Assembly: GCA_014208095.1 (NCBI GenBank)
Contig: JACHMT010000004.1
Location: 186,001 to 250,000 of the forward strand
Length of the DNA stretch: 64,000 bases
DNA from: Actinospineispora eucalypti
Lineage (GTDB): Bacteria; Actinomycetota; Actinomycetes; Mycobacteriales; Pseudonocardiaceae
Direction: 5' to 3'
Positions 1,648 through 60,084 of the stretch are shown here, piece after piece (the first letter of the stretch is position 1; each line of letters opens with the position of its first letter). The notes under the pieces are model-generated. The model was given only the letters and a program-made list of their open reading frames with translations. It had not been told where the DNA came from and searched no databases. The translations under genes were made by a program, and so were the position numbers.

Positions 1648-2497
1648 CCGCGGCCCGGGGCCGGACCCGGGCGACCACCCGGCAGGCCAGGTAGCACAGG
1701 AAGATCAGCGTGGCCACGTACCCGGAGATCGGCAGGCCCGGGGCCAGGGAGAGCACCGTGCCACCGAGCAGGGACAGTTCGGCGAAGATCACCGCGAGCA
1801 GCGTGACCACCACCGGGTTGGAGGAAACCCGGGCCGCCGCCGCCCCGGGGGTGACCATCACCGCGAGCACCAGGATGGCGCCGACGGCGGGGACCGCGAG
1901 CGCGGTGGTCAGCCCGATCAGCACGGCGAACATCGGGGACAGCCAGTGCACCGGAACGCCGCGCGCGGCGGCCACCGCCGGGTCGGTGCTGGCGAACAGC
2001 AGCGGCCGGTACCAGACCAGCAGCGCGCCGATCACCACCGCTGCGCAACCGCCGAGCAGCCACAGGTTGGTGGTGTCCACGGAGACGATGGAGCCGGTGA
2101 GCAGGCCGAACTTGTTCGCCGCCCGGCCGGGATAGAGCGCGAGCAGCAGCACACCGAGGCCCAGCCCGAAGGCCAGCACCACGCCGATCACCGAGTCCCG
2201 TTCCCGTTGGCGCAGCCCGAGCAGGCCGAACACCAGGGCGGCCAGCACCGCGCCGACCACCGCGCCGAACTGGACGAAAGCGGTGCCCACCAGCAGGCCG
2301 GCCGCGCCGCCGGTGAAGGCCAGCTCGGCGGTGCCGTGCACGGCGAACGCCATGCCCCGGGCCACGATCAGCGGGGCGAGCAGCCCGGCGATCAGGCCGA
2401 GCACCGCCGCCGCGATCAGGGCGTTGTGCACGAACGGCTGGGCCAGCAGCCGGCCGAGGCCGTCGAAGGTGAACACCCGGGCGAGCAGTTCGGTCAT
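1640..2497 (-). CDS. znuB: zinc/manganese-type ABC transporter permease (ZnuB family)
   Basis: 285 residues, almost wholly hydrophobic with about eight membrane helices, as usual for the ABC-3 permease family that imports zinc or manganese. Family-like features include the TAVPAVGAIL-type segment (here TALAVPAVGAILVLAVMVTP) and the early GLLAPLIVARGMAFAVHGTAEL region. It is the membrane channel of the importer encoded with the ATPase and the binding lipoprotein upstream. Its ATG overlaps the ATPase stop codon by 4 bp (ATGA), so the two are probably translationally coupled. The gene is last in a three-gene operon read on the minus strand. Zinc is favoured over manganese because of the His-rich binding protein and the Zur-like operator. 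Confidence 0.9.
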   Translation of the reverse strand: MTELLARVFTFDGLGRLLAQPFVHNALIAAAVLGLIAGLLAPLIVARGMAFAVHGTAELAFTGGAAGLLVGTAFVQFGAVVGAVLAALVFGLLGLRQRERDSVIGVVLAFGLGLGVLLLALYPGRAANKFGLLTGSIVSVDTTNLWLLGGCAAVVIGALLVWYRPLLFASTDPAVAAARGVPVHWLSPMFAVLIGLTTALAVPAVGAILVLAVMVTPGAAAARVSSNPVVVTLLAVIFAELSLLGGTVLSLAPGLPISGYVATLIFLCYLACRVVARVRPRAAAR

Positions 2498-3414
2498 GGA
2501 TGGTGCCCGCAGTTGGTGGCGGAGTCGACCGAGCCGTCGGCGCCGACCACGACCAGCCGGTCCCGCACCCGCAGCACGTCCACCCGGGTGCGGTACAGCT
2601 CGGACAGGGCCTCCGAGGTCATCACCTCGTCGGTCGTGCCGATCCGGAACCGCCCGTTGACCAGGTACAGCACCCGGTCGACCAGCGGCAGTATGGGGTT
2701 GATCTCGTGCGTGACGAACAGCACGGCGGTGGCCGCGTCCACCCGGCGCTGGTCGATCAGCCCGGAGACCACCCGCTGGTTGGCCAGGTCCAGCGACAGC
2801 AGCGGCTCGTCGCACAGCAGCACCGAGGGGTCGCCGACCAGCGCCTGCGCCACCCGCAGCCGCTGCTGCTCCCCGCCGGAGAGCCGGCCGACCGGGGCGT
2901 CGGCGTAGCCGGTGGCGCCCACGGCGGCCAGCGCCTCGTCCACCTTCTCCCGGCGCGCCCGCCGGACCGCCGGGCTGAGCAGGCGGGGCCCCAGCCGGTG
3001 CCCGTCCACGCCCAGCCCGACCAGGTCGCGCCCGCGCAGCGGCACGTCGACGTCCATCGGCTGCTGCTGCGGGATGTAGCCGATGTCGGGGTGGCCGCGC
3101 CTCGGCGGCCGGCCGTTGACCGCCACGCTGCCGGCGGTCAGCCGCAGCTGGCCGAGCAGCACCTTCAGCAGGGTGGTCTTGCCCGAGCCGTTCGGCCCGA
3201 GCACCGCGACGAACTCGCCGGGGTCCAGCCGCAGGTCCAGCCCGTCCCAGAGCACCCGGTCGCCGAACGCCAGGCGGGCGCCGGCCAGCTCGACCGCCGG
3301 AATCCCGGTGTTCCCGTCGGGCGCCAAACTGGGCGCCCGACCCAGCCCGCCGGCTCCGCCGCCGGTGTCCTTCCGGTCGACGGCTGGGGCCGCCGAGGAC
3401 TCGACCGCCGTCAC
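2494..3414 (-). CDS. znuC: zinc ABC transporter ATP-binding protein (ZnuC family) with N-terminal extension
   Basis: 306 residues. Walker A GPNGSGKTT, signature LSGGEQQR, Walker B VLLCDEP and the switch His of VTHE are all present, so this is an intact ABC ATPase. The Q-loop region IGYIPQQQPMDVDVPL is typical of metal importers. The GTG start overlaps the stop of the binding-protein gene (GTGA). Unlike most ZnuC proteins, about 40 residues precede the ABC domain (which begins at PAVELAGARLAFG), and part of this, GRAPSLAPDGNT, is encoded by copy 1 of the dispersed palindromic element (3307-3361). A TTG or GTG start beyond the element cannot be excluded, but the overlap with the upstream stop favours 3414. 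Confidence 0.92.
   Translation of the reverse strand: MTAVESSAAPAVDRKDTGGGAGGLGRAPSLAPDGNTGIPAVELAGARLAFGDRVLWDGLDLRLDPGEFVAVLGPNGSGKTTLLKVLLGQLRLTAGSVAVNGRPPRRGHPDIGYIPQQQPMDVDVPLRGRDLVGLGVDGHRLGPRLLSPAVRRARREKVDEALAAVGATGYADAPVGRLSGGEQQRLRVAQALVGDPSVLLCDEPLLSLDLANQRVVSGLIDQRRVDAATAVLFVTHEINPILPLVDRVLYLVNGRFRIGTTDEVMTSEALSELYRTRVDVLRVRDRLVVVGADGSVDSATNCGHHP
3307..3361 (-). repeat. palindromic element copy 1, in frame inside znuC
   Basis: This 55-bp stretch matches copy 3 (50723-50777) at 54 of 55 positions and copy 2 (32178-32223) over about 46 bp. Its core is a perfect 10-bp inverted repeat, GTCGGGCGCC and GGCGCCCGAC, around the 6-nt loop AAACTG, followed by a CCAGCCCGCCGGCTCCGCCG tail. 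On the coding strand of znuC it reads GLGRAPSLAPDGNTG without a stop. It lies in the N-terminal extension, ahead of the conserved ABC domain, where an insertion would be tolerated. Confidence 0.85.
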
Positions 3415-5613: not shown

Positions 5614-5622
5614 CCCCCACCC

Positions 5623-5775
5623 CTGATTCAGTGCCTTCAGCACGCCGATTCAGTGCGTTCAGCACGCCGATTCAGTGCGTTCAGCACGGTGATTCAGTCA
5701 CTTCAGCACACTGCCAAAGTCACTGAATCACGCTGCTGAATGCACTGAATCACGCTGCCAGAGTCACTGAATCAG
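5623..5775. repeat. array of 22-bp direct then inverted repeats between convergent genes
   Basis: Four consecutive direct copies of a 22-bp unit based on GATTCAGTGCGTTCAGCAC are followed by about three copies in reverse complement (AGTCACTGAATCACGC type). The whole gap between lacI and otsA is therefore one large interrupted palindrome. Both flanking genes end here, so it could act as a bidirectional terminator. The same unit sequence (CTGATTCAGTCACTTCAGCAC) recurs at 38601-38687. Confidence 0.85.
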
Positions 5776-22198: not shown

Positions 22199-23473
<1,275 letters not shown>

Positions 23474-23474
23474 A

Positions 23475-23614
23475 CCCATATCGCGGGTTCCGCCGGCCCA
23501 TATCGCGGCCCTCACCAGTCCATGTCGCGGATTTTCGCAGTGGGTGAGCTGGGCGAACCCGCGATATGACGTGGGGAAACCCGCGACATGGCGTGGCGTA
23601 ACCCGCGATATGGG
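23475..23614. repeat. array of about 22-bp CCATATCGCGGGTT direct then inverted repeats
   Basis: Three direct copies based on CCCATATCGCGG(GTT) spaced about 22-23 bp are followed by three reverse-complement copies (AACCCGCGATATG, AACCCGCGACATGG, AACCCGCGATATGGGG). It fills the gap between convergent purA and the GDPD gene. The unit differs from the 5623-5775 array but the architecture is the same. Confidence 0.85.
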
Positions 23615-23615
23615 G

Positions 23616-24746
23616 TTAGGGGGTGCGGAACTCGCGGCGGGCTTCCACGGCGGTGTCGGTGTTGTCGGTGAAGATGCCGTCCACGCCGAGCTTGAAGTAC
23701 TGGATGTCCTCGTCGATGGCGCGGCCGTAGTCGGTGGGGTTGGCGGAGCTGCGCAGGTCGGCCGGCAGGAACTGGTTCTCGTTGCGGAAGGTGAACGGGT
23801 GCACCAGCAGGCCGGCCCTGTGCGCGTCGGCGATCAGCGTGGTGGGGGCACCCGCGACGCCGTCCGCGCTGGTCGGGACGATGTAGGTCTTGGCCGGTCC
23901 GATGCCTCGGGCGTACTTGGCGATCTCGGCCAGGCCGGCCGGGGTGACCAGGTCGGCGTAGGTGCGCTTGTCGCCGGCGGCGACCAGGTCGGCCGGGGCG
24001 CCGGATGAGTCGATCAGCTGGATCAGCGGAACCTTCAGCTCCTTGTGCAGCTCACGCAGGTTGCCGGTCTCGAAGGACTGCACGAACACCTTCGCGTCCG
24101 GGCGGTTGAGCCCGTTGCGGTTCAGCGCATCGACCAGGCCGGGCTCGACGGGCAGCCCGACAGACCGGAAGTACGTGGGGTGCTTGGTCTCCGGGTAGAT
24201 GCCGATCTCCCGGTGCAGCTCGGCGGACAGGCGGTTGCGCAGGTCGATGACCTCCTGGAAGGTCGGGATCTGGAACCGGCCGTTGTACATGGTGTTGCGC
24301 GCGCGGACCTCGGGGATCCGCTCGGTGGCGCGCAGGGTGCGCAGCTCGGCCAAGGTGAAGTCCTCGGTGAACCAGCCGGTCATGGCCGTGCCGTCGACGG
24401 TCTTGGTGGTCTTGCGGGAGGCGAACTCGGGGTGCGCGGCGACGTCGGTCGTTCCGCCGATCTCCGGCTCGTGCCGGGCGACCAGCTGGCCGTCCTTGGT
24501 GGAGACCAGGTCCGGCTCGATGTAGTCGGCGCCCATCCGCGCGGCCAGCTCGTAGGAGGCCAGGGTGTGCTCGGGGCGGTACCCGGAGGCGCCCCGGTGA
24601 CCGATGATCAGCGGCCCGGCGGTCTCCGGGGCGGGCGCGCCGGCCGCCGCCGGCTGGCCGGAACCCCCGTTCCCGCCGCAGGCGGAGACCATGGTGAACG
24701 TGGTGGCGAGCAACAACCAGGCCAGCGGGCGCGTGGCGATCGACAT
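23616..24746 (-). CDS. glpQ: glycerophosphodiester phosphodiesterase, lipoprotein
   Basis: 376 residues. The N-terminus is a lipoprotein signal ending MVSAC. The catalytic GDPD signatures follow: IIGHRGASGYRPEHTLASY (HR...E), ADYIEPDLVSTKDGQLVARH (E, D and H), then QSFETGNLREL and the C-terminal GVDGIFTDNTDTA. The enzyme hydrolyses glycerophosphodiesters released from phospholipids or wall teichoic acids to glycerol-3-phosphate. Its length, with an insertion between the first and second halves, fits the periplasmic GlpQ group. It is transcribed toward purA. Confidence 0.93.
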   Translation of the reverse strand: MSIATRPLAWLLLATTFTMVSACGGNGGSGQPAAAGAPAPETAGPLIIGHRGASGYRPEHTLASYELAARMGADYIEPDLVSTKDGQLVARHEPEIGGTTDVAAHPEFASRKTTKTVDGTAMTGWFTEDFTLAELRTLRATERIPEVRARNTMYNGRFQIPTFQEVIDLRNRLSAELHREIGIYPETKHPTYFRSVGLPVEPGLVDALNRNGLNRPDAKVFVQSFETGNLRELHKELKVPLIQLIDSSGAPADLVAAGDKRTYADLVTPAGLAEIAKYARGIGPAKTYIVPTSADGVAGAPTTLIADAHRAGLLVHPFTFRNENQFLPADLRSSANPTDYGRAIDEDIQYFKLGVDGIFTDNTDTAVEARREFRTP

Positions 24747-32020: not shown

Positions 32021-35000
32021 GTGGCAGACGGGGTCGGGGACGATGCCGTCTCGCGCGCGCATCGGCACCGCCGGGAGTCCGAGGGTCTCTCCGTAGCGGA
32101 CCTGCTGGCTCGGCACGGGCGGGACGCGACCACTCCCGGCCACCGCCACCAGCATCCGGGCGACGAGATGGATCCCTCCGGCGGGCCGGGTCGGGCGCCC
32201 AGTTTGGCGCCCGACGGCGACACAGCCGGCAGCGACACCCCCGCCGGGCCGCGTGGCCGGCGCGGCTCCATCGGCCCGATCACCGCGCCGAACCTCCCGG
32301 CCGGTCCCTACGGCGGATACCAGCCCGACGCCCCGGCCGGTCGGTATGCCCCGGATTCCTCGGGCGAGCGGTACATCCCGTACAACTCGGGGGAGCGGTA
32401 CGTCCCGGACGCCCCGATCGGGCGTTATGCCCCGGAGGCTCCGGCCGAGCGGTACGTTCCGAACGATCAGCGCGAGCGGGATCCCCTGGACAAATCGGCT
32501 GACCAGTATCCCATGGACGGGCCGACCGGGCGGTACCCGCTGGTCGACCGGCTACCGAGCGCCGATCCGCACGGTTACGGCCCGACGGCGAGCGGCCCGT
32601 CGAGCCCGGTGCCCCTGCCTCCGGACGAGCCGCCGTCCTCGTTCGCGGAGTTCGACGCCGAACCGCCGCCGGACGAGCCGAGGGGCGACACGGGGGCGAT
32701 CTGGTCGTCCGGCCCCGCGCCCGCCGCGCCGGCCGGCTGGCCGGCGGAGCCCGACGAACGCGCCGCCGGCCGGGCGGACCACCCGTTCCGCCCGACCGAC
32801 CGGGGAAGGTCAGCGATCACCGAATCGCGGCCGTCCTCCCACGACTCCCTGTGGTCCTCGCCGAACCCGTCGACGAACCTTTTCGCGCAGCTCGGTTCCG
32901 CCGAACCGGACGACCGGCCCACCGAGGTGGTGCCCCGGGTCGACGACGGCGCCGCGCCGGGCAACGACCTGCCCGGTGGCCTGGGCAACGGCGTCCCCGG
33001 CGGCCCGGGCAACGGCATTCCCGGCGGCCCGGGCAACGGCGTGCCGGGCGGCCCGGTCGGTCGCGCACCCGGTGGCCCCGCTCGCGGCGCGCCCGGTGAC
33101 CCGGCTGATGGCGCCTCCGGTGGCCCGGCGGGGGGTGTCGCGGCGGCGGGTGGTGCGGTTCTCGGTGCGGCCGCTGCCGTTGGCGCGGCTGGTGGTCTTG
33201 CCGGCGCGGCGGGTGGTGCGGCCGGTGCGGCCCTCGGCGGCGCTGGTGCGGCCGGTGCGGCGGCCGGGACGGTCGCGCTCGGCGCGGTCGCCGGGACCGC
33301 GGCGATCCGGCCCGGCCGGCACTACCGGCCGGACGTGTCCGACCCGGACGCGGCCGACCCCGGCACCGACGAGCCCGCGAGCGGCGAGCAGGGCTTCGCC
33401 GGGCCGCCTCCCGACCACGCGGACCAGGCCTTCGCCGAACCTCCCGCCGGCCGGGCCGGGCCCGGCTTCGACGAGCCGACCGCCAACCGCGCCGGGCCGG
33501 GCCTTGCCCAGCCACCCGCCGACGACCCCGCCGCGGATCGCGCACGGCCGGCGGCCGACCAGCCCGAACCCGTCGACCAGCCCGCCATGCCCGCCCACGA
33601 GGAGTACGACCCCGGCGCCGGGGCCGGTGACTCCGAGAAGCCGGCCGTGGTGAACGCCCCGCCCGCCCTCACCCAGGACCAACGCACCCGGCAGATCGAC
33701 GCCAGCCTCACCCGGCTGACCGCGATCCACGCCGGCCTCGGCGCCGAGCTCTCCCAGCGGGTGAGCCGGCGCGCGGACGACGAGGAGGAGCCCGCCGCCC
33801 CGGAGGCCGACGAGCCGACCGACGACGGCCCGCCGCCGCCGCGCCACCCCACGCTGAACCGGGTCGCCCGGATCGCCGCGCTGGTCGCGGCGGCGGCGCT
33901 GTTCGTCGTGGCCGCGTCCGGCTGGGGCATGCAGATCTGGCTGAACACCAAGCTGCGCCCGGTGACCGCGTTGGACGCCGATGCGGAGACCGTGGTGGAC
34001 GCGGCGGCCCAGCGGGGTGACCGCAACTACCTGTTCGTCGGGTTGCCGCCGGGCGGGCGCGAGGCCCGCCCGGCAACCGTCACCCTGGCCCACCTGGACG
34101 CCGCCCGGGAGCGCCTGGTGCTCGTGGGTTTCCCCGAGGAACTGGTGGTGGACCGGCCGAGCTGCGACCGGTGGGACAACACCCAGAACAGCTATCCGGG
34201 CGGGACGACCCCGGCCGCACAGGGCATCCGGCTGTTCGAGGCCTACGCCGAGGGCGGCCCGCGCTGCCTGACCAAGACGGTGCAGAAGCTGACCGGCCTA
34301 TCCGTCAACCACTACACCGGGCTGGACCTCGCCGCGCTGCCCGCGATGGTCGACGCGGTGCACGGGGTGCCGCTGTGCCAGGCGCTGTCCACGTCGCCGG
34401 GGCCCGCCCCGGAGAGCGGGCCCACCGTGCTCACCGGCGACAAGGCGCTCGCCTTCGTCCGCGGCTCGGGCGACCAGACCGACGACCGGGTCGCCGCCGC
34501 GGGCACCCCCGCCAGGACGACGAACGCGGATGACCAGCTGGCCATCCGGCACCAGCAGGTGTTCCTCGCCGCGCTGCTGAACAAGGCCACGTCGGACGGC
34601 GTGCTGAACTCGCCCGGTGAACTGGACGCGCTGGTCAGCGCGTTCGGTGGCGCCTCGTACGAGGACAATGCCGACCTCGGGGAGCTGACCCCGCTGGCCA
34701 AGGCGCTGCACCGGATCGAGCCGGCCAAGGTGCTGGTGGTCACCGCGCCGCCCTCGGTCCCGTCCGGCCGGCCGGGTGAGGTGGACCCGGGGGCGCTGTA
34801 CGCGGCCATCCGGGGGGACAAGGCGCTGCCCGGCGAGACCGTTGCCGACAAGTTGGATAGCGGCACGGCGAAGCCGGAGCCGACCCTGATACCCAGCTCG
34901 ATCCGGGTCACGGTGCGCAACGCGTCCAAGCGGGCCGGCCTGGCCAACGAGGCCGCCGATTCGCTGCGCACCCTGGGGTTCGTGGTCGCCGGCACCGGTG

Positions 35001-35347
35001 ACGCGCCGGCGTCGCCGGGCGGACGGACGATCATCCGGTACTCCCCGGACCGGGCCAAGCAGGCCGCCGTACTGGGAGACGCGGTGCCGTCGGCCATCGT
35101 GGAGCCGGCGCCGCCCCCGCCGGGCTCCAGCACGACCGACCCGGCCGACCCGCTCGACCCGACGGGCATCGACGAGCCGAGCGCGGCCCCCACCCCCGCC
35201 CCGTACGTCGGCCCGAGCGTCCTCGAGCTGGTGCTCGGTGACCGGTTCGACGGCCAGGTCCGCGTGGCGCCGGCGCCGGAGCCGAGCGCGGGCGCCTCCG
35301 TGGCCAGCCTCCGCGCGGCCACCCACACCGCCCCCACCTGCGGCTGA
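32021..35347 (+). CDS. LytR-CpsA-Psr (LCP) family cell-wall ligase with long disordered cytoplasmic region
   Basis: 1108 residues. GGGAGG precedes GTG 32021. Residues 1-610 are predicted disordered: SVADLLARHG near the start, then decapeptide-like repeats around xxRYxPD (32320-32470), a Gly/Pro repeat (GNGVPGGPGNGIPGG type), and an Ala/Gly-rich stretch near residues 370-430. One membrane helix follows at about 615-640 (RIAALVAAAALFVVAASGWG), then the LCP domain (LVGFPEELVVDRPSCDRW, LTGLSVNHYTGLDLAALP) and a LytR_C domain (IRVTVRNASKRAGLANEAAD). LCP enzymes join polymers to peptidoglycan. It includes palindromic element copy 2. Confidence 0.9.
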   Translation: MADGVGDDAVSRAHRHRRESEGLSVADLLARHGRDATTPGHRHQHPGDEMDPSGGPGRAPSLAPDGDTAGSDTPAGPRGRRGSIGPITAPNLPAGPYGGYQPDAPAGRYAPDSSGERYIPYNSGERYVPDAPIGRYAPEAPAERYVPNDQRERDPLDKSADQYPMDGPTGRYPLVDRLPSADPHGYGPTASGPSSPVPLPPDEPPSSFAEFDAEPPPDEPRGDTGAIWSSGPAPAAPAGWPAEPDERAAGRADHPFRPTDRGRSAITESRPSSHDSLWSSPNPSTNLFAQLGSAEPDDRPTEVVPRVDDGAAPGNDLPGGLGNGVPGGPGNGIPGGPGNGVPGGPVGRAPGGPARGAPGDPADGASGGPAGGVAAAGGAVLGAAAAVGAAGGLAGAAGGAAGAALGGAGAAGAAAGTVALGAVAGTAAIRPGRHYRPDVSDPDAADPGTDEPASGEQGFAGPPPDHADQAFAEPPAGRAGPGFDEPTANRAGPGLAQPPADDPAADRARPAADQPEPVDQPAMPAHEEYDPGAGAGDSEKPAVVNAPPALTQDQRTRQIDASLTRLTAIHAGLGAELSQRVSRRADDEEEPAAPEADEPTDDGPPPPRHPTLNRVARIAALVAAAALFVVAASGWGMQIWLNTKLRPVTALDADAETVVDAAAQRGDRNYLFVGLPPGGREARPATVTLAHLDAARERLVLVGFPEELVVDRPSCDRWDNTQNSYPGGTTPAAQGIRLFEAYAEGGPRCLTKTVQKLTGLSVNHYTGLDLAALPAMVDAVHGVPLCQALSTSPGPAPESGPTVLTGDKALAFVRGSGDQTDDRVAAAGTPARTTNADDQLAIRHQQVFLAALLNKATSDGVLNSPGELDALVSAFGGASYEDNADLGELTPLAKALHRIEPAKVLVVTAPPSVPSGRPGEVDPGALYAAIRGDKALPGETVADKLDSGTAKPEPTLIPSSIRVTVRNASKRAGLANEAADSLRTLGFVVAGTGDAPASPGGRTIIRYSPDRAKQAAVLGDAVPSAIVEPAPPPPGSSTTDPADPLDPTGIDEPSAAPTPAPYVGPSVLELVLGDRFDGQVRVAPAPEPSAGASVASLRAATHTAPTCG
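32178..32223 (+). repeat. palindromic element copy 2, in frame inside the LCP gene
   Basis: 46 bp matching copies 1 and 3 with a few changes (CCGGGTCGGG instead of CTGGGTCGGG, GGCGACAC instead of GGAAACAC). The core hairpin arms are intact. Read in the plus frame as GPGRAPSLAPDGDT, the same reading frame as in znuC. It lies in the disordered N-terminal tail. Confidence 0.85.
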
Positions 35348-38600: not shown

Positions 38601-38687
38601 CCTGATTCAGTCACTTCAGCACGGTGGTTCAGTCACTCTTGACTGCTGGAGTGACTGAACCGGTGTGCCGAAGTGACTGAATCAGGG
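38601..38687. repeat. long inverted repeat, GATTCAGTCACTTCAGCAC family
   Basis: Left arm CCTGATTCAGTCACTTCAGC...GGTTCAGTCACT and right arm AGTGACTGAACC...GAAGTGACTGAATCAGG form an almost perfect 37-bp stem around a 12-nt loop. The arm is made of the same unit as the array at 5623-5775. It sits exactly between convergent phoU and the ABC permease gene, as a bidirectional terminator would. Confidence 0.88.
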
Positions 38688-38699
38688 TTGGTGTGGGCG

Positions 38700-50330: not shown

Positions 50331-51233
50331 TCAGCTCGCGAGTACCCGCTTCACCGCCTCGGCCAGGGGCGCGGTGGGCCGGCCGATCAGTGCGGCCAGG
50401 TCACCGGTCTTGGTGGCCAGCTCGCCCCGGTCCACGGCGGCGTCCACGTCGACCAGCAGGTCGGCCACCGGTTCGGGGATGCCGGCGCCGGTGAGCACGC
50501 CCAGGTGCTCGGCCGGGGTGAGCCGGCGGTACCCGACCGGGCGGCCGGCCTGCCTGGCCACCTCGGCGGCCAGCTCGGCGAAGCTCCACGCCACGTCCCC
50601 GGACAGCTCGTACACCGGCTTCGGCGCCTCGGCGGTGAGGACGGCGGCGGTCGCCTCCGCGTACTCCTCGATCAGCGCCGAAGCCACCCGGGCGTCCGGC
50701 CCGGCCGAGCCGACGATCTCGCCGGCGGAGCCGGCGGGCTGGGTCGGGCGCCCAGTTTGGCGCCCGACGGAAACACCGCCGCTCGTGGCGGCGTGGGCCA
50801 GTGAGGGGCGGTAGTTCTCCAGGTACCAGCCGTTGCGCAGGAACACGTGCGGCAGGCCCGAGGCCCTGATCGCGGCCTCGGTGGCCTGGTGGTCCTCGGC
50901 CAGCCGGGCGCCGGACCGCTCGCCGCCCAGGATGCTGGTGTAGGCGAACAGCTCGACGTCCCCGGCCGCCTCCAGCACCGCGCGGTGCTGCGCCGGCCGC
51001 TGCCCGAACGGTCCGGGCGAGGAAATCAGCAGCACCCGGCGGGCGCCGGCCAGCGCGGCGGGCAGGGTTTCCGGGTGGTCGTAGTCGGCCCGCCGCACGG
51101 GGACGCCGAGTTCCTGGGCCGCCTCCGGGCGGCGCACCGCCGCGACCACCCGGTCGGCGGGCACGCCGCGCGCGAGCAGCTTCTGGACTACCTGCCGGCC
51201 GAGGTTGCCGGTCGCTCCAACAATCACGATCAT
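50331..51233 (-). CDS. NAD(P)H-binding reductase, NmrA/QorB-like
   Basis: 300 residues. IVIVGATGNLGRQVVQKLLA is the Rossmann loop; the rest follows the SDR atypical (NmrA/QorB) pattern (YTSILGGERSGARLAEDHQ, FLRNGWYLENYRPSLAHA, VYELSGDVAWSFAELA). It reduces quinones or similar compounds. After ATSGG an extra stretch VSVGRQTGRPTQPAGSAGEI sits where the family continues directly with GSAG...RV; this is palindromic element copy 3 read in the opposite orientation from the other two. The convergent FAD gene stops 2 bp away. Divergent HxlR regulator. Confidence 0.88.
   Translation of the reverse strand: MIVIVGATGNLGRQVVQKLLARGVPADRVVAAVRRPEAAQELGVPVRRADYDHPETLPAALAGARRVLLISSPGPFGQRPAQHRAVLEAAGDVELFAYTSILGGERSGARLAEDHQATEAAIRASGLPHVFLRNGWYLENYRPSLAHAATSGGVSVGRQTGRPTQPAGSAGEIVGSAGPDARVASALIEEYAEATAAVLTAEAPKPVYELSGDVAWSFAELAAEVARQAGRPVGYRRLTPAEHLGVLTGAGIPEPVADLLVDVDAAVDRGELATKTGDLAALIGRPTAPLAEAVKRVLAS
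50723..50777 (+). repeat. palindromic element copy 3, in frame inside the NmrA-like gene
   Basis: 55 bp, identical to copy 1 at 54 of 55 positions after reverse complementing. The gene reads it on the minus strand as VSVGRQTGRPTQPAGSAG, so the element is translated in the opposite direction from the frame used in znuC and the LCP gene. The insertion is in frame and adds about 18 residues to a surface loop of the reductase. Confidence 0.85.
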
Positions 51234-51297
51234 GCGGTTGACGTTAGGCGCCGACACTAACTCTGCGTAAGTACCCACTTTGAAGTACGGTAATGGT

Positions 51298-51708
51298 ATG
51301 TGGGTAAGTGTAGAGGTCAACGGGCACGTGGTGGATGTGTGCGAACCCAACTGCCCGTCCCGGGGCGTGCTGGAGCACGTCACCAGCCGGTGGGGTGTGC
51401 TGGTGCTGGCCATCCTGCGGGACGGCGGCACCTACCGGTTCAGCGAGCTGCGCCGCAGGGTCGGCGGGGTGAGCGAGAAGATGCTCGCGCAGACTCTGCA
51501 GCGCCTGGAGCGGGACGGCTTCGTCCGCCGGGTCGCGCACCCGGTGATCCCGCCGCACGTCGACTACTCGCTGACCCCGCTCGGTGAGCCGGTCGCCCAC
51601 CGGATCGCGGAGATCACGCTCTGGATCGAGGAGCACCTCGGGGACGTCTTCGCCGCCCGTGAGGAGTACGACGCTACGCGCGAGACAGCGCCAGCAGGGC
51701 GGCGTTGA
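51298..51708 (+). CDS. HxlR-family regulator
   Basis: 136 residues. CEPNCPSRGVLEHVTSRWGV and FSELRRRVGGVSEKMLAQTLQRLERDGFVRR form the winged helix-turn-helix of the HxlR/QorR family (broken here: FSELRRRVGGVSEKML, LERDGFVRR). Members paired with NmrA/QorB reductases sense quinones or disulfide stress through the N-terminal Cys; this protein has CEPNC near residue 15. A TACCCAC/GTGGGTA dyad (51272-51278, 51300-51306) spans its start and may be its operator. The 3' end overlaps the convergent TetR gene by 35 bp. Confidence 0.9.
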   Translation: MWVSVEVNGHVVDVCEPNCPSRGVLEHVTSRWGVLVLAILRDGGTYRFSELRRRVGGVSEKMLAQTLQRLERDGFVRRVAHPVIPPHVDYSLTPLGEPVAHRIAEITLWIEEHLGDVFAAREEYDATRETAPAGRR

Positions 51709-56777: not shown

Positions 56778-58502
56778 TCAGCGGGGTTGACGCGGGAACG
56801 GGCTCGGGGCGTGTTCGGCCAGCAGGCTGACCAGCTCTCCCTCGCCGAAGCCGACCAGGCGAGCCACCTGCGCCGGAGTGAGGCCGGCGCTGCGCAGCCG
56901 GCGGGCCGCGTCGGCCAGCTGGCGCCGTTGCGCGACCACGGTGCGGTGCAGGCGGTCCAGCTCCTGCTGCACAAGGTCCAGGTCGTCGACCGCGTGCAGT
57001 GCGCGGTCCGGGTCGGCTAACAGGACCTGCAGCAGGCGGTCGCGGGCGTCCGGGTGGTGGATCGCGGCGACGTCCGGGAACGGTGTGGCCGGGGCTGGCG
57101 CCGAGACGCCGGCCGGGGCCGCACCGGTAGCTTCGGCGGTCGGGCCGGGTCGGGCGGGCGCCAGGCTTTCGGGGTCCGCGTCCGGGTCCTGGGCGGCTTG
57201 CCCGTCTTCGGATGACCGTCCGGCGAAGCGCGCGGCGGCCGCCGCGCCGCCGACGAGCGCCGCCGCACCCGCCACGGCAACCGGCGCGGAGAAGGGGCGC
57301 TGGCCGCTCCCGTCGGACTCCTCGGCCGCCTCGGCGTCGCCCGATGTCCCGGTGTCGCCAGATGTGCTGGTGTCTCCGTCCGTGCCGTCCGTGCCGTCCG
57401 TGCCGTCCGTGCCGTCCGTGCCGTCCGTGCCGTCCGTGCCGGCGGGCGTGCCGGCTTCGCCGGCCCCACGACCGGCGCTCCCACCGGCGGCGAGGTCTAG
57501 CGCCTCGGTGGTGGCGTCACCGGTTGCTCCAGCGGACGTGAGCCCGGCGGCCTCAGTGCCCGTGGGCGCGGAAAAACCGGTAGCCGCCGGATCGGATTCC
57601 CCGGCCGCTTCGGCGGCCAAAGGCGCGGCGACCCCGGCCGCTTCGGCGGCCAAAGGCGCGGCGACCCCGGCCGCTTCGGTGGTCGCGGAATCGACATCAT
57701 CGGTAGCCGCGGTGTTGGCGGCTTGGGGCTGGCCGGCCGCGTTGGTTTGGACTTCGCCGGCCGTTGTCGCCTCGGCCTCACCGGTTGCGTTCGCCTCGGC
57801 GTCGCCGGCCGCGTCCGCGTAGGCCTCACCGGCCGCGTTCGTGTCGGCCTCATCGGTTGCGCCTGCATCGGCCGCGTCGGCTTCGCCGGTTGTGCTCGAG
57901 CCGGCCCTGGCGAGTCCGGCGGCGGCGACTCCGGCTATCCCGGCGGCTGCCGCGTACTTGGCGGGTCCGCCGGTGTCGTCGGCCGAGTCGGTCCGGTGGG
58001 CGCCGGCGGGCGGCGGGTCCTTCGCGGCGACGCGTTGCGGGACGGTTGTGCCGTCCAGGTCGGAGGGGGTGGTTCCGTCGGTCTGGGCCGGTTGCTCGGC
58101 CGGTACCCAGGAGGACTTTTCGGGGTCCTTGGTGCCGTTGCCCGCCGGCGCGCCGCCCACACGGCCGATGGAAGGGCCGGAAGGAGCACCGGACACCTGC
58201 CCGGCCAGTTCGGCGGGGGACAGGTACCTGGTCGGGATCGGCTCGGTGGGTGCGTGCATGGGCTGGGCACGGGACCGGGGTCGCGGGGTCACCGGGCTCG
58301 GCGTCTTGGCCGGAACCGGGGGCCGAGGAGCGGTGGGCGGCGGACCCGGATTGCGTTCACGCAGCGCCGCCTGGGTGCGCGCGCGGCGGCGCGCTCTGGC
58401 CCTACTGCGCCGGACGAGCACCATCACCAGGATCAACAGCAGTAGCGCAACGAGGGCCCCGGCGCCGACGGCCGTCTGCATCGGGGTGAACGGCAACCTC
58501 AT
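56778..58502 (-). CDS. single-pass membrane protein with long Ala/Thr/Gly-rich repeat region
   Basis: 574 residues. A helix at about 10-31 (AVGAGALVALLLLILVMVLV) is followed by a basic patch and an acidic, Ala-rich low-complexity region with hexads such as TGEAEA, the perfect tandem APLAAEAAGVA (33-bp repeat) and a TDG run. The C-terminal 90 residues look folded and helical: HHPDARDRLLQVLLADPDRAL, LDLVQQELDRLHRTVVAQRR. I do not recognise a family. It faces the DivIVA-like gene in the same direction, with its start 55 bp past that gene's stop. Confidence 0.7.
   Translation of the reverse strand: MRLPFTPMQTAVGAGALVALLLLILVMVLVRRSRARARRRARTQAALRERNPGPPPTAPRPPVPAKTPSPVTPRPRSRAQPMHAPTEPIPTRYLSPAELAGQVSGAPSGPSIGRVGGAPAGNGTKDPEKSSWVPAEQPAQTDGTTPSDLDGTTVPQRVAAKDPPPAGAHRTDSADDTGGPAKYAAAAGIAGVAAAGLARAGSSTTGEADAADAGATDEADTNAAGEAYADAAGDAEANATGEAEATTAGEVQTNAAGQPQAANTAATDDVDSATTEAAGVAAPLAAEAAGVAAPLAAEAAGESDPAATGFSAPTGTEAAGLTSAGATGDATTEALDLAAGGSAGRGAGEAGTPAGTDGTDGTDGTDGTDGTDGTDGDTSTSGDTGTSGDAEAAEESDGSGQRPFSAPVAVAGAAALVGGAAAAARFAGRSSEDGQAAQDPDADPESLAPARPGPTAEATGAAPAGVSAPAPATPFPDVAAIHHPDARDRLLQVLLADPDRALHAVDDLDLVQQELDRLHRTVVAQRRQLADAARRLRSAGLTPAQVARLVGFGEGELVSLLAEHAPSPFPRQPR
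57376..57438 (-). repeat. 9-bp tandem repeat, seven perfect copies
   Basis: Unit CCGTCCGTG on the plus strand, repeated seven times without change. It encodes the Thr-Asp-Gly run of the surrounding membrane protein. Perfect copies in a 3n register can gain or lose units without a frameshift, so length variation between strains is expected. Confidence 0.9.
57603..57677 (-). repeat. 33-bp tandem repeat, about 2.3 copies
   Basis: Two exact 33-bp copies (57603-57635 and 57636-57668) and a partial third. Each encodes an 11-residue unit AAEAAGVAAPL in the membrane protein. In-frame duplication is evident. Confidence 0.88.
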
Positions 58503-58557
58503 GGCTACGTACCGTACGTGGCCTACCTGGCGTTAGTCGGTTTCGACACCCGATCGG

Positions 58558-60084
58558 TCACGCCATGCCACCACCGTATGACCCGCGACCGCCGTCCGAC
58601 TCCTCCGACCAGAAGCCGTTGTCCCGGTTGGCGAGGCCGTTGCGCGGCTGCGGGCCCTGCACCGGTGGCGCGCCGGCCGAGGCGCCGGGGCGGGGACGCG
58701 GGGTGGGTGTCGGGCGCGGCTTGGGGCTCGGCACGTTCGGCCGGGCCGACGGCGCGCCGGATCCCTGCCCGCCGGCCGAGCCCTGCCCGCCGCCGGAGGC
58801 CTCGCCGGCCGGGCGGGATTCGGAGCTGGGTCGCGCGTCACCTCCGGCGCGCCCCTCGGTGCCGGACCGTCCCTCCGACTCCGACCGACCGTCCGCGCTG
58901 GAACGTGCGTCCGACCCGGAACGACCATCGGTGCCGGAACGTGCGTCAGGCCCGGAACGTCCGTCGGCACCGGAGCGTCCGTCGGTGCCGGAACGACCAT
59001 CGGTGCCGGAACGTGCGTCAGGTCCGGAGCGTCCGTCGGCGCCGGAGCGGCCTTCGGTGCCCGACGCCGGGGCGTCACCCGATGTGGGCCGAGGGGTCGG
59101 GCTGGGCCGGACCGCCGGGGTGGGGCCGGTGCTGCTGGCGGAACGGGCAACCGGGGTGGGGCCGGTGCCGCTGGTGGAACGCGCAATCGGCGTCGGGCCG
59201 CTGGTCGGCCGGGAAATCGGAGTGGGGCCGGTGCCCGTGCTGGGCCGGGGGCGGGGTGACGGGGTGGACTCCGGCTCGGCGCGCGGCTCGGGCCGGGGCT
59301 TGGGGGTCGGCGTGGGCTTGCGGCCGCTTTCCGGGGTCGGGATGGGGCCGGAGCGGGTAGTGGGTGCGTCGGTGCCGCGCTGGGCCGGCGGGGGCACCTG
59401 GGCGGCGGCCGGCTTGGGTCCGCCCCGCTCGGCCGGCTTGGGTCCGCCTCGCTCGGCCGGTTTCGCCCCGCCCCGGTCGGTGCCGAGCCCGCCGCCGATT
59501 CCGCCCCGACTGTCGGGACGCTCCGGGGTGCGGGGATGCACGTCCCTGGGCTGCGCCCTGGCCACCGGCTTCAGCCCGATGGACTGCTCCGAACGGCGGG
59601 CGCCCATCGGGATGCCCTCCGGCGGGGTGTCGCTGGCCTCGTCGTCACGCGCCTGGATGAGCAGGCCGTCCAACTGGTGGCGGACCCTGGTCAGGTTGCC
59701 CAGCACGTTCTCCCGGCGGCGGACCAGGTCGGAAAGGCGGGCGCGGGCCGCCTCCTCCTCGGCGCGGGCGAAGTTGCGCGCCTTGGCGCGGATCTCCTCC
59801 GCCTCCTCCTCGGCCACTTGCAGGATCGACTGCAGCCGGCCGGTGAAGGCGCCGATCCGCTCCTCGGGCTGCTCGTTGCCGCCGGAAGCCGGCTCGAACA
59901 AGCTGGTGGTGGCCCCGCCGCGCGCCGTTTCCAGTTCCTTGCGCTGCCGGGCGATGGTGCGCTCCAGCCCGGCGATGTGCTCGTCCACCTGGCGTCGGTC
60001 GTACCCGCGCACCACGACGTCGAAATGCGGCGGTGCCGCCTCTCCGTCCGGCTGCCGCCGGCTGTCTGCGTGGTCCGCGGTCAT
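58558..60084 (-). CDS. DivIVA-like coiled-coil protein with Pro-rich and pentapeptide-repeat tail
   Basis: 508 residues. FDVVVRGYDRRQVDEHIAGL is the DivIVA-type N-terminal segment. Residues about 25-150 form a coiled coil (LQSILQVAEEEAEEIRAKAR, LSDLVRRRENVLGNLTRV). The remainder is disordered: PKPAERGGPKPAERGG repeats, TPTPKPRPEP, and 13-odd units of RSGxDx/GxDGRSG type. Such proteins sense membrane curvature or mark cell poles; no partner is known for this one. The coil resembles Wag31-interacting or SepIVA-like proteins. It is followed by the repeat-rich membrane protein, and both probably share a transcript. Confidence 0.75.
   Translation of the reverse strand: MTADHADSRRQPDGEAAPPHFDVVVRGYDRRQVDEHIAGLERTIARQRKELETARGGATTSLFEPASGGNEQPEERIGAFTGRLQSILQVAEEEAEEIRAKARNFARAEEEAARARLSDLVRRRENVLGNLTRVRHQLDGLLIQARDDEASDTPPEGIPMGARRSEQSIGLKPVARAQPRDVHPRTPERPDSRGGIGGGLGTDRGGAKPAERGGPKPAERGGPKPAAAQVPPPAQRGTDAPTTRSGPIPTPESGRKPTPTPKPRPEPRAEPESTPSPRPRPSTGTGPTPISRPTSGPTPIARSTSGTGPTPVARSASSTGPTPAVRPSPTPRPTSGDAPASGTEGRSGADGRSGPDARSGTDGRSGTDGRSGADGRSGPDARSGTDGRSGSDARSSADGRSESEGRSGTEGRAGGDARPSSESRPAGEASGGGQGSAGGQGSGAPSARPNVPSPKPRPTPTPRPRPGASAGAPPVQGPQPRNGLANRDNGFWSEESDGGRGSYGGGMA
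58859..59062 (-). repeat. degenerate 15-bp repeat encoding RSG-x-D pentapeptides
   Basis: About 13 units of 15 bp, for example RSGADG, RSGPDA, RSGTDG. A block of GADGRSGPDARSGTDGRS occurs twice in a row, showing higher-order duplication. Reading frame is maintained throughout. Confidence 0.8.

Follow-up and report, generated by a model that had tools for sequence, protein, structure and literature searches.

A 64,000-nucleotide stretch of the Actinospineispora eucalypti genome, referred to here as the window, contains three copies of a palindromic sequence, all of them inside genes. The question raised by this locus is whether these are copies of a mobile element that enters protein-coding DNA in frame, and how the host genes can accommodate it.

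Palindrome copies within genes

The sequence was described in the initial annotation as a perfect 10-bp palindrome present three times, in each case within a gene, and these particulars are confirmed. The exact palindrome GTCGGGCGCC-N6-GGCGCCCGAC is found at 3316–3341, 32190–32215 and 50743–50768, in an ABC ATPase ORF, an LCP-family ORF and an NmrA-like ORF, respectively, and does not occur in any of 100 dinucleotide-preserving shuffles of the window. Copies 1 and 3 are mutually inverted and are identical at 54 of 55 bp, the figure given previously. A larger unit, here named F1, has the palindrome as its second half. The F1 copies in the window and the genes that contain them are:

3305..3361, minus strand: F1 copy 1, a 57-bp unit (mini-hairpin and main hairpin); sense reading GGGAGGLGRAPSLAPDGNT, in the N-terminal tail of an ABC ATPase (ZnuC-like)
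32178..32226, plus strand: F1 copy 2, without the 5' arm of the mini-hairpin; sense reading GGPGRAPSLAPDGDT, in the N-terminal low-complexity part of an LCP (LytR-CpsA-Psr) ORF
50723..50779, plus strand: F1 copy 3, a 57-bp unit; antisense to its host, reading GGVSVGRQTGRPTQPAGSA, inside a quinone-oxidoreductase-like (NmrA) protein
2494..3414, minus strand: host ORF of copy 1, ABC-transporter ATPase (PF00005); probable GTG start at 3414
32021..35347, plus strand: host ORF of copy 2, LCP family (LytR_cpsA_psr); the long low-complexity N-terminal region carries the copy
50331..51431, minus strand: host ORF of copy 3, NmrA/quinone-oxidoreductase-like; conserved start probably at 51233

The host of copy 1 has an ABC domain identified through Pfam and is presumably ZnuC; it adjoins a gene read earlier as the partner in a znuA/znuC pair. 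Copy 1 had been put forward as the explanation for an extra N-terminus on this protein. The N-terminal tail is longer here, at 37 residues against 29 in Pseudonocardia acaciae, yet the P. acaciae tail is without any copy and the F1 unit therefore only partly accounts for it.

Other repeats are also present in the window. One region, 57367–59243, holds a number of short tandem repeats, the periods being 9, 18 and 30–36 bp. A separate repeat family, GATTCAGTGCNTTCAGCAC / TGAAGTGACTGAATCA, is arranged both in tandem and inverted at 5617–5760 and 38601–38691; ACTGAATC from this family is found 44 times in 412 kb of this genome, taken from partly overlapping loci, and not at all in 704 kb of relatives. 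A long inverted repeat at 23470–23619 is made of CCATATCGCGG / CCATGTCGCGG words. The word CCATATCGC from this repeat is present 15 times in the 412 kb of own sequence and is absent from the 704 kb of relatives, while CCATGTCGC is found 9 times in own sequence and 10 times in the relatives, and so is common to both.

Copy number and distribution

The genome consists of 9,624,083 bases (9.62 Mb) in 7 contigs and belongs to the GTDB genus that holds P. acaciae. It contains 28 exact palindrome places, including one with a loop of 10 nt that is probably unrelated. A 30-bp oriented core, with up to 3 mismatches allowed, is found at 59 places spread over all seven contigs, in keeping with the earlier expectation that there would be many more copies genome-wide. 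Around the places on these two lists, 56 loci of approximately 4 kb were fetched. A joint superfamily pattern, covering F1 and the sister family F2 described below, is present at 132 places with up to 2 mismatches; the reversed pattern, used as a control, is present at none.

The F1 and F2 elements are absent from the other genomes searched and are very probably lineage-specific. No F1 pattern was found in 59 relatives, 35 of them from the genus, and the joint pattern likewise had no hit in 61 other genomes belonging to the genus. Across 396 other genomes from the order, the joint pattern gave one chance-like hit with two mismatches, compared to three hits for the reversed control. Exact scans found no occurrence in viral contigs or in the genome contigs of 84,980 species, with one genome for each species in a set that may lack the window's own record and those very close to it. 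Codon bias had been suggested as a possible source of the motif, and in the high-GC relatives searched it does not generate it.

Carriage on a plasmid or phage was considered and rejected, with a tandem pair of F1 units (locus L066) having no match in plasmids or phages and the exact pattern being absent from viral contigs.

Structure of the F1 element

The F1 unit is 57 bp in length and combines two hairpins, a small one with a GNA triloop (the mini-hairpin) and a 10-bp one with a six-base CAGTTY loop; a short spacer separates them and a short tail follows the second. In the orientation of the element itself, the consensus of the aligned copies is CCGGCGNAGCCGGCGCGCT-GGGTCGGGCGCCCAGTTYGGCGCCCGACGG-NNACACCG. 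The consensus has no long inverted ends of the sort that would be expected of a MITE; where the right flank is CGCCGGCG, both F1 ends can pair. Tandem F1 are spaced at 57 bp (8 cases), 54 bp (3), 51 bp (1) or 60 bp (1), all 13 spacings being multiples of three. These arrays suggest local amplification.

Covariation in the main hairpin was assessed across 23 F1 copies and 24 of 30 F2 copies. Four pairs have two-sided changes, in 27 cells compared to 1.4 and 9.6 on shuffling, the shuffle figures being inflated by the relatedness of the copies. One pair is GC in 22 copies, CG in 14 and UA in 8. When the partner is shifted by 1 to 3 columns, the covariation score falls from 0.167 to 0.053 or less. 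In F2 the main hairpin lacks its outermost pair, and 25 of the 47 copies are unpaired at this position. In an alignment of F1 alone (53 of the 67 F1 units), 93% of cells are paired across both hairpins. The mini-hairpin rests mainly on this pairing and its covariation is weak, because a partner shifted by one column has two-sided changes just as often (7 pairs and 14 cells) as the partner in register (6 pairs and 14 cells). As judged from these alignments, the conserved feature of F1 is a folded single strand with two hairpins, with covariation supporting the main hairpin. At gathering scores, Rfam identifies only a tRNA in the window; among seven loci it gave one match, to a microRNA family, far below the gathering score of that family.

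Sites without the element in related genomes

When one 4-kb region was compared with 59 other genomes of the genus, the best match was P. acaciae DSM 45401, now Actinospineispora acaciae in the NCBI taxonomy. Three sites (L040, L066 and copy 3) allow a clean comparison, and at these only, P. acaciae has a clean site without the copy. This supports the proposal that the sequence is a dispersed palindromic element that has been inserted and is open in frame. The L040 gene, encoding an ABC ATPase, has 57 extra bases here that correspond to a 19-residue insert in the protein, and is uninterrupted in P. acaciae. The L066 gene encodes another ABC ATPase, approximately 90% identical at the DNA level, and contains 114 extra bases, or two units, giving an insert of 38 residues. 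Copy 3 generates an insert of 19 residues relative to P. acaciae that is missing from 80 of 80 homologues, these being the best 80 of 161 confirmed matches from named genomes; the net gap is at least 14 residues in all of them and 20 in 72. The solved relative 2zcu is also without this insert. It had been noted that copies shared at the same sites by all orthologues would argue against insertion, and no copy was found in any orthologue examined.

Alignment of orthologues had also been proposed as a means of fixing the insertion boundaries and identifying any target duplication. The three clean sites are consistent with insertion directly after CG, with an ambiguity of 1–5 bp. A target-site duplication is not evident for F1, however, as the identity between left and right flanks is not significantly above that of shuffled pairs (p = 0.08).

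Other sites are less clear. The gene for the glycine dehydrogenase P-protein (L017) is 57 bases longer than that of P. acaciae between aligned blocks, with a diverged flank, and the gap in the protein alignment is just 13 residues. A second stretch of 12 residues in this protein (in PGNPGSPGSPGSSQ; G000:C1:535500-539500) is also missing in P. acaciae. At L016, L032 and L033, the last of which is copy 1, P. acaciae is free of a copy and the flanks have diverged, such that there is no clean alignment; the L033 protein alignment has no insert of 10 or more residues relative to P. acaciae. A screen of 400 kb of P. acaciae contig 1 found L040 to be clean and L017 to be diverged, with the other matches being short or paralogous-looking.

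Seven of the host proteins were set against solved structures. An extra stretch is clear in copy 3 and in L048, and that of L048 holds two units. There is a gap of 11 residues beside the unit in L062, L051 and L059 align through the unit with no clear gap, and for L018 and L066 the comparison decides nothing. An AlphaFold model of the copy 3 protein, made with an alignment of 28 sequences (L173, L245, L225 and L228 left out), has a mean pLDDT of 92.3. The insert is placed at approximately residues 152–170, between a helix (138–150) and a strand (171–175). Its two 10-residue blocks have a mean pLDDT of 50 and 61, and residues 155–163 are below 50. The model thus predicts that the insert is a floppy loop on an intact fold.

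Reading frame and frame use

Coding frame was judged from codon usage trained on 91 long ORFs, with tandem copies grouped to give 54 sites containing 67 units. The same coding frame is best on both sides of the element at 39 of the 54 sites and, with the exception of L037, which has one stop, these are free of stop codons (38 of 39). With strict thresholds 36 sites could be judged, of which 29 are same-frame and 28 stop-free. The remaining 15 of the 54 sites do not have one frame on both sides, and include gene ends, gene boundaries and unclear cases. Random points in the window are same-frame at a similar rate (1082 out of 1445, p = 0.63), therefore F1 is not depleted in genes. Genes containing F1 include those for glycine dehydrogenase, UvrD- and DEAD-type helicases, ABC ATPases and a cytochrome c assembly protein. 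All six frames are without stops in 50 of the 67 F1 units, compared to 26% of 5000 57-mers from the window. Because the unit is divisible by three in length and is stop-free in six frames in most cases, an insertion in a gene would usually add a linker of approximately 19 Gly/Ala/Pro-rich residues and leave the protein unbroken.

Frame use at the 39 same-frame sites is uneven. Where the element is in the sense orientation, the frame GGAGALGRAPSLAPDGNTA is used 19 times and each of the other two frames once, the favoured frame encoding a neutral peptide rich in Gly, Ala and Pro. In the antisense orientation GVSVGRQTGRP is read at 12 sites, VFPSGAKLGA at 6, and the Arg-rich frame at none. Part of this skew is expected if CG is the target, because CG targets themselves favour the codon-boundary phase: 52% of coding CG and 65% of coding CGCC span a codon boundary. 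It is conceivable, although rather unlikely, that choice of target is the sole reason for the frame preference, with insertion at CG falling mostly at a codon boundary and selection having no part. The three clean sites fit insertion after CG, and the antisense sites taken alone do not differ from the CG expectation (12 of 18 in boundary phase, p = 0.16). Overall, however, 31 of 39 sites are in boundary phase, which is above the expectation from both CG (p = 4e-4) and CGCC (p = 0.04), and the sense sites alone exceed that from CG (19 of 21, p = 2e-4). The phase that gives strongly basic peptides is used at 1 of the 39 sites, which is rarer than expected (p = 0.003 for CG and 0.006 for CGCC). 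Sites were treated as independent in these tests. The skew in F1 frames is probably due in part to target phase and in part to selection for harmless peptides.

The sister family F2

The F2 consensus, AGCGCGGAACGCGCTNGCCGAGCGCGCGCCCAGTTCGGCGCGCGCGGGAGACAC, shares its loop and architecture with F1. In the 30 distinct copies analysed, which are a subset of the family, 16 have TAG at one fixed position, mostly after C, the AG of which can pair in the mini-hairpin. This TAG is the in-frame stop of the upstream gene in 14 of the 30. Only 8 of 30 F2 sites are same-frame, a depletion relative to random window points (1082 out of 1445, p = 6e-8). At L122, L260 and L261 the element is between convergent genes, both of which end in TAG at its edges, as if CTAG had been the target. 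The right flanks of 8 of the 30 copies have TAG within a few bases, which is a hint of target-site duplication. At L042 (G000:C7 near 494317-494422) an F1 and an F2 are 80 bp apart in opposite orientations, and one ORF seems to read through both.

Origin of the elements

F1 is very probably a lineage-specific, non-autonomous mobile element of approximately 57 bp that is based on hairpins, is mostly intragenic, and usually serves as a harmless in-frame linker, the frames of which are selected. The hairpin-forming unit would be inserted, probably as a single strand, by an enzyme that was not found here. Insertion would have taken place at dozens of sites, mostly intragenic and in either orientation, with the target probably at or next to a CG dinucleotide. 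Translation of the insert would then expose the peptide to selection, and those in harmless frames would be retained. F2, with the same architecture and often a TAG edge, would be found mainly outside genes or at gene ends, where it may often provide the stop codon.

It is also possible, if doubtful, that F1 and F2 are one hairpin-recognised mobile element, without a known transposase, that has split into two ecotypes: an intragenic linker (F1) and a TAG-edged form that lands on stops (F2). The enzyme moving them would be of an undescribed kind. Were this the case, a chromosome dense in genes and rich in GC would be open to insertion of F1 or F2 at nearly every point, and the cost would be small.

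Y1 transposases are the kind of enzyme thought to move REPs. F1 and F2 might be ordinary REPs moved by a RAYT (Y1/HUH) transposase, with some landing in genes, although this seems improbable. Their hairpins are similar in size to those of REPs, F2 often supplies TAG as is described for the GTAG REPs, and intragenic REPs exist, as set out in the relevant passages of PMC3733652. The genome, however, contains no match to Y1_Tnp (PF01797), by a search that was positive in 5 of 14 control genomes; it is 97.5% complete and 6.7% contaminated by the figures of the assessment tool. F1 and F2 share neither a GTAG tag nor an unpaired CGTC tag, and the presence of F1 in genes at the rate of random points also argues against this origin.

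Retention of the unit for its peptide, as a flexible linker that is of use and has spread through gene conversion or exchange between genes, is very unlikely. In its favour, the preferred sense frame is neutral and Gly/Ala/Pro-rich. Against it, both orientations and at least three frames are read, generating unrelated peptides (19 sense sites and 12 + 6 antisense sites), the main hairpin covaries in a manner indicative of selection on a folded nucleic acid, and the sister family is mostly outside genes. A chance resemblance, or codon bias in a genome of high GC, can be dismissed, common as GC palindromes are in GC-rich sequence, because the element is absent from the other high-GC genomes searched, and neither the shuffled window nor the reversed pattern in this genome produced any.

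Implications of a probable translated mobile element

In-frame selfish DNA appears to be most familiar from intracellular genomes that have undergone reduction, and relaxed selection would readily explain it there. The F1 element places the in-frame insertion habit, best known from Rickettsia, in a distant lineage with a large actinomycete genome. Dozens of natural insertions of 19 residues in one proteome provide a ready experiment on protein tolerance. The division between F1 and F2 offers a test of whether evolution can bring a mobile element to harmless translation, and the mobiliser of F1 and F2, once found, may be a new mobility enzyme.

Comparison with known repeat families

The PARCEL repeats are palindromic DNA that codes for protein repeats and are thought to spread, according to the part of PMC2996958 that deals with them. 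F1 is likewise palindromic DNA that would code for a stretch of protein. The PARCEL repeats are 25-residue amphipathic domains in tandem, found in many taxa, whereas F1 is mostly a single insertion in unrelated proteins and was found in one genome.

The Correia/NEMIS elements of Neisseria have a 107-bp form with an open frame that is fused in genes and a 155-bp form with stops that is almost only intergenic, as summarised in PMC2229807. F1, mostly in genes, and F2, mostly outside them, are similarly two related forms divided between locations. Terminal inverted repeats of 24 bp and a target-site duplication are listed for the Correia elements, yet neither is evident for F1.

The REPs are short stem-loops with many copies per genome, uneven presence among species and some intragenic members, as characterised in the sections of PMC3733652 that define them. 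Their GTAG class, which often gives a TAG stop (PMC3733652), has an unpaired GTAG at one end, and the F1 consensus is without any. The CGTC class is defined by an unpaired CGTC at one end, an 8–9 bp stem, a 4–5 nt loop and a CCA-like tail; in F1 a CGTC on the reverse strand is within the 10-bp stem with a 6-nt loop, and F2 has no CGTC. PF01797, the Y1 (IS200/IS605-type) tyrosine transposase that marks the REP/RAYT system, has no match in the genome. F1 thus differs from REPs in its bipartite unit, its GNA mini-hairpin, its 6-nt loop, its lack of a shared unpaired tag and the absence of a detected Y1 transposase, and REP membership fails on the features tested. The superfamily passages of PMC3733652 name Proteobacteria, Cyanobacteria, Chloroflexi, PVC, Chlorobi, Bacteroidetes, Spirochaetes and Thermotogae; the word 'actinobacteria' does not occur in its main text, where untagged REP-like repeats of M. 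tuberculosis are mentioned. To regard in-frame insertions of this sort as peculiar to Rickettsia would be too narrow, since intragenic REPs are described in several species in the passages on them in PMC3733652. In the literature searched, no description of such elements was found in Pseudonocardia or other actinobacteria, which falls short of proof that none is in print.

The resemblance to Rickettsia palindromic elements (RPE) proposed for the window copies holds at the level of function, and Wolbachia is said, by the title of a paper, to have such palindromic in-frame repeats of its own. RPE are dispersed palindromic DNA, in frame in conserved genes, through which proteins gain an extra stretch; those described are 105–150 bp with terminal inverted repeats (portions of PMC2229807 and PMC10969869). 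RPE-4 and RPE-6 match short CGTC repeats according to the text on these in PMC3733652. Compared by description rather than by consensus sequence, F1 differs in its length of 51–60 bp, built on a 57-bp unit, in its two hairpins, and in its location in a large GC-rich actinomycete genome. Like RPE, F1 is palindromic, is in frame in conserved genes (39 of 54 sites) and is absent from orthologues (three clean sites). By analogy, F1 appears to work in the manner of the RPE and the intragenic REPs, the likeness being one of function.
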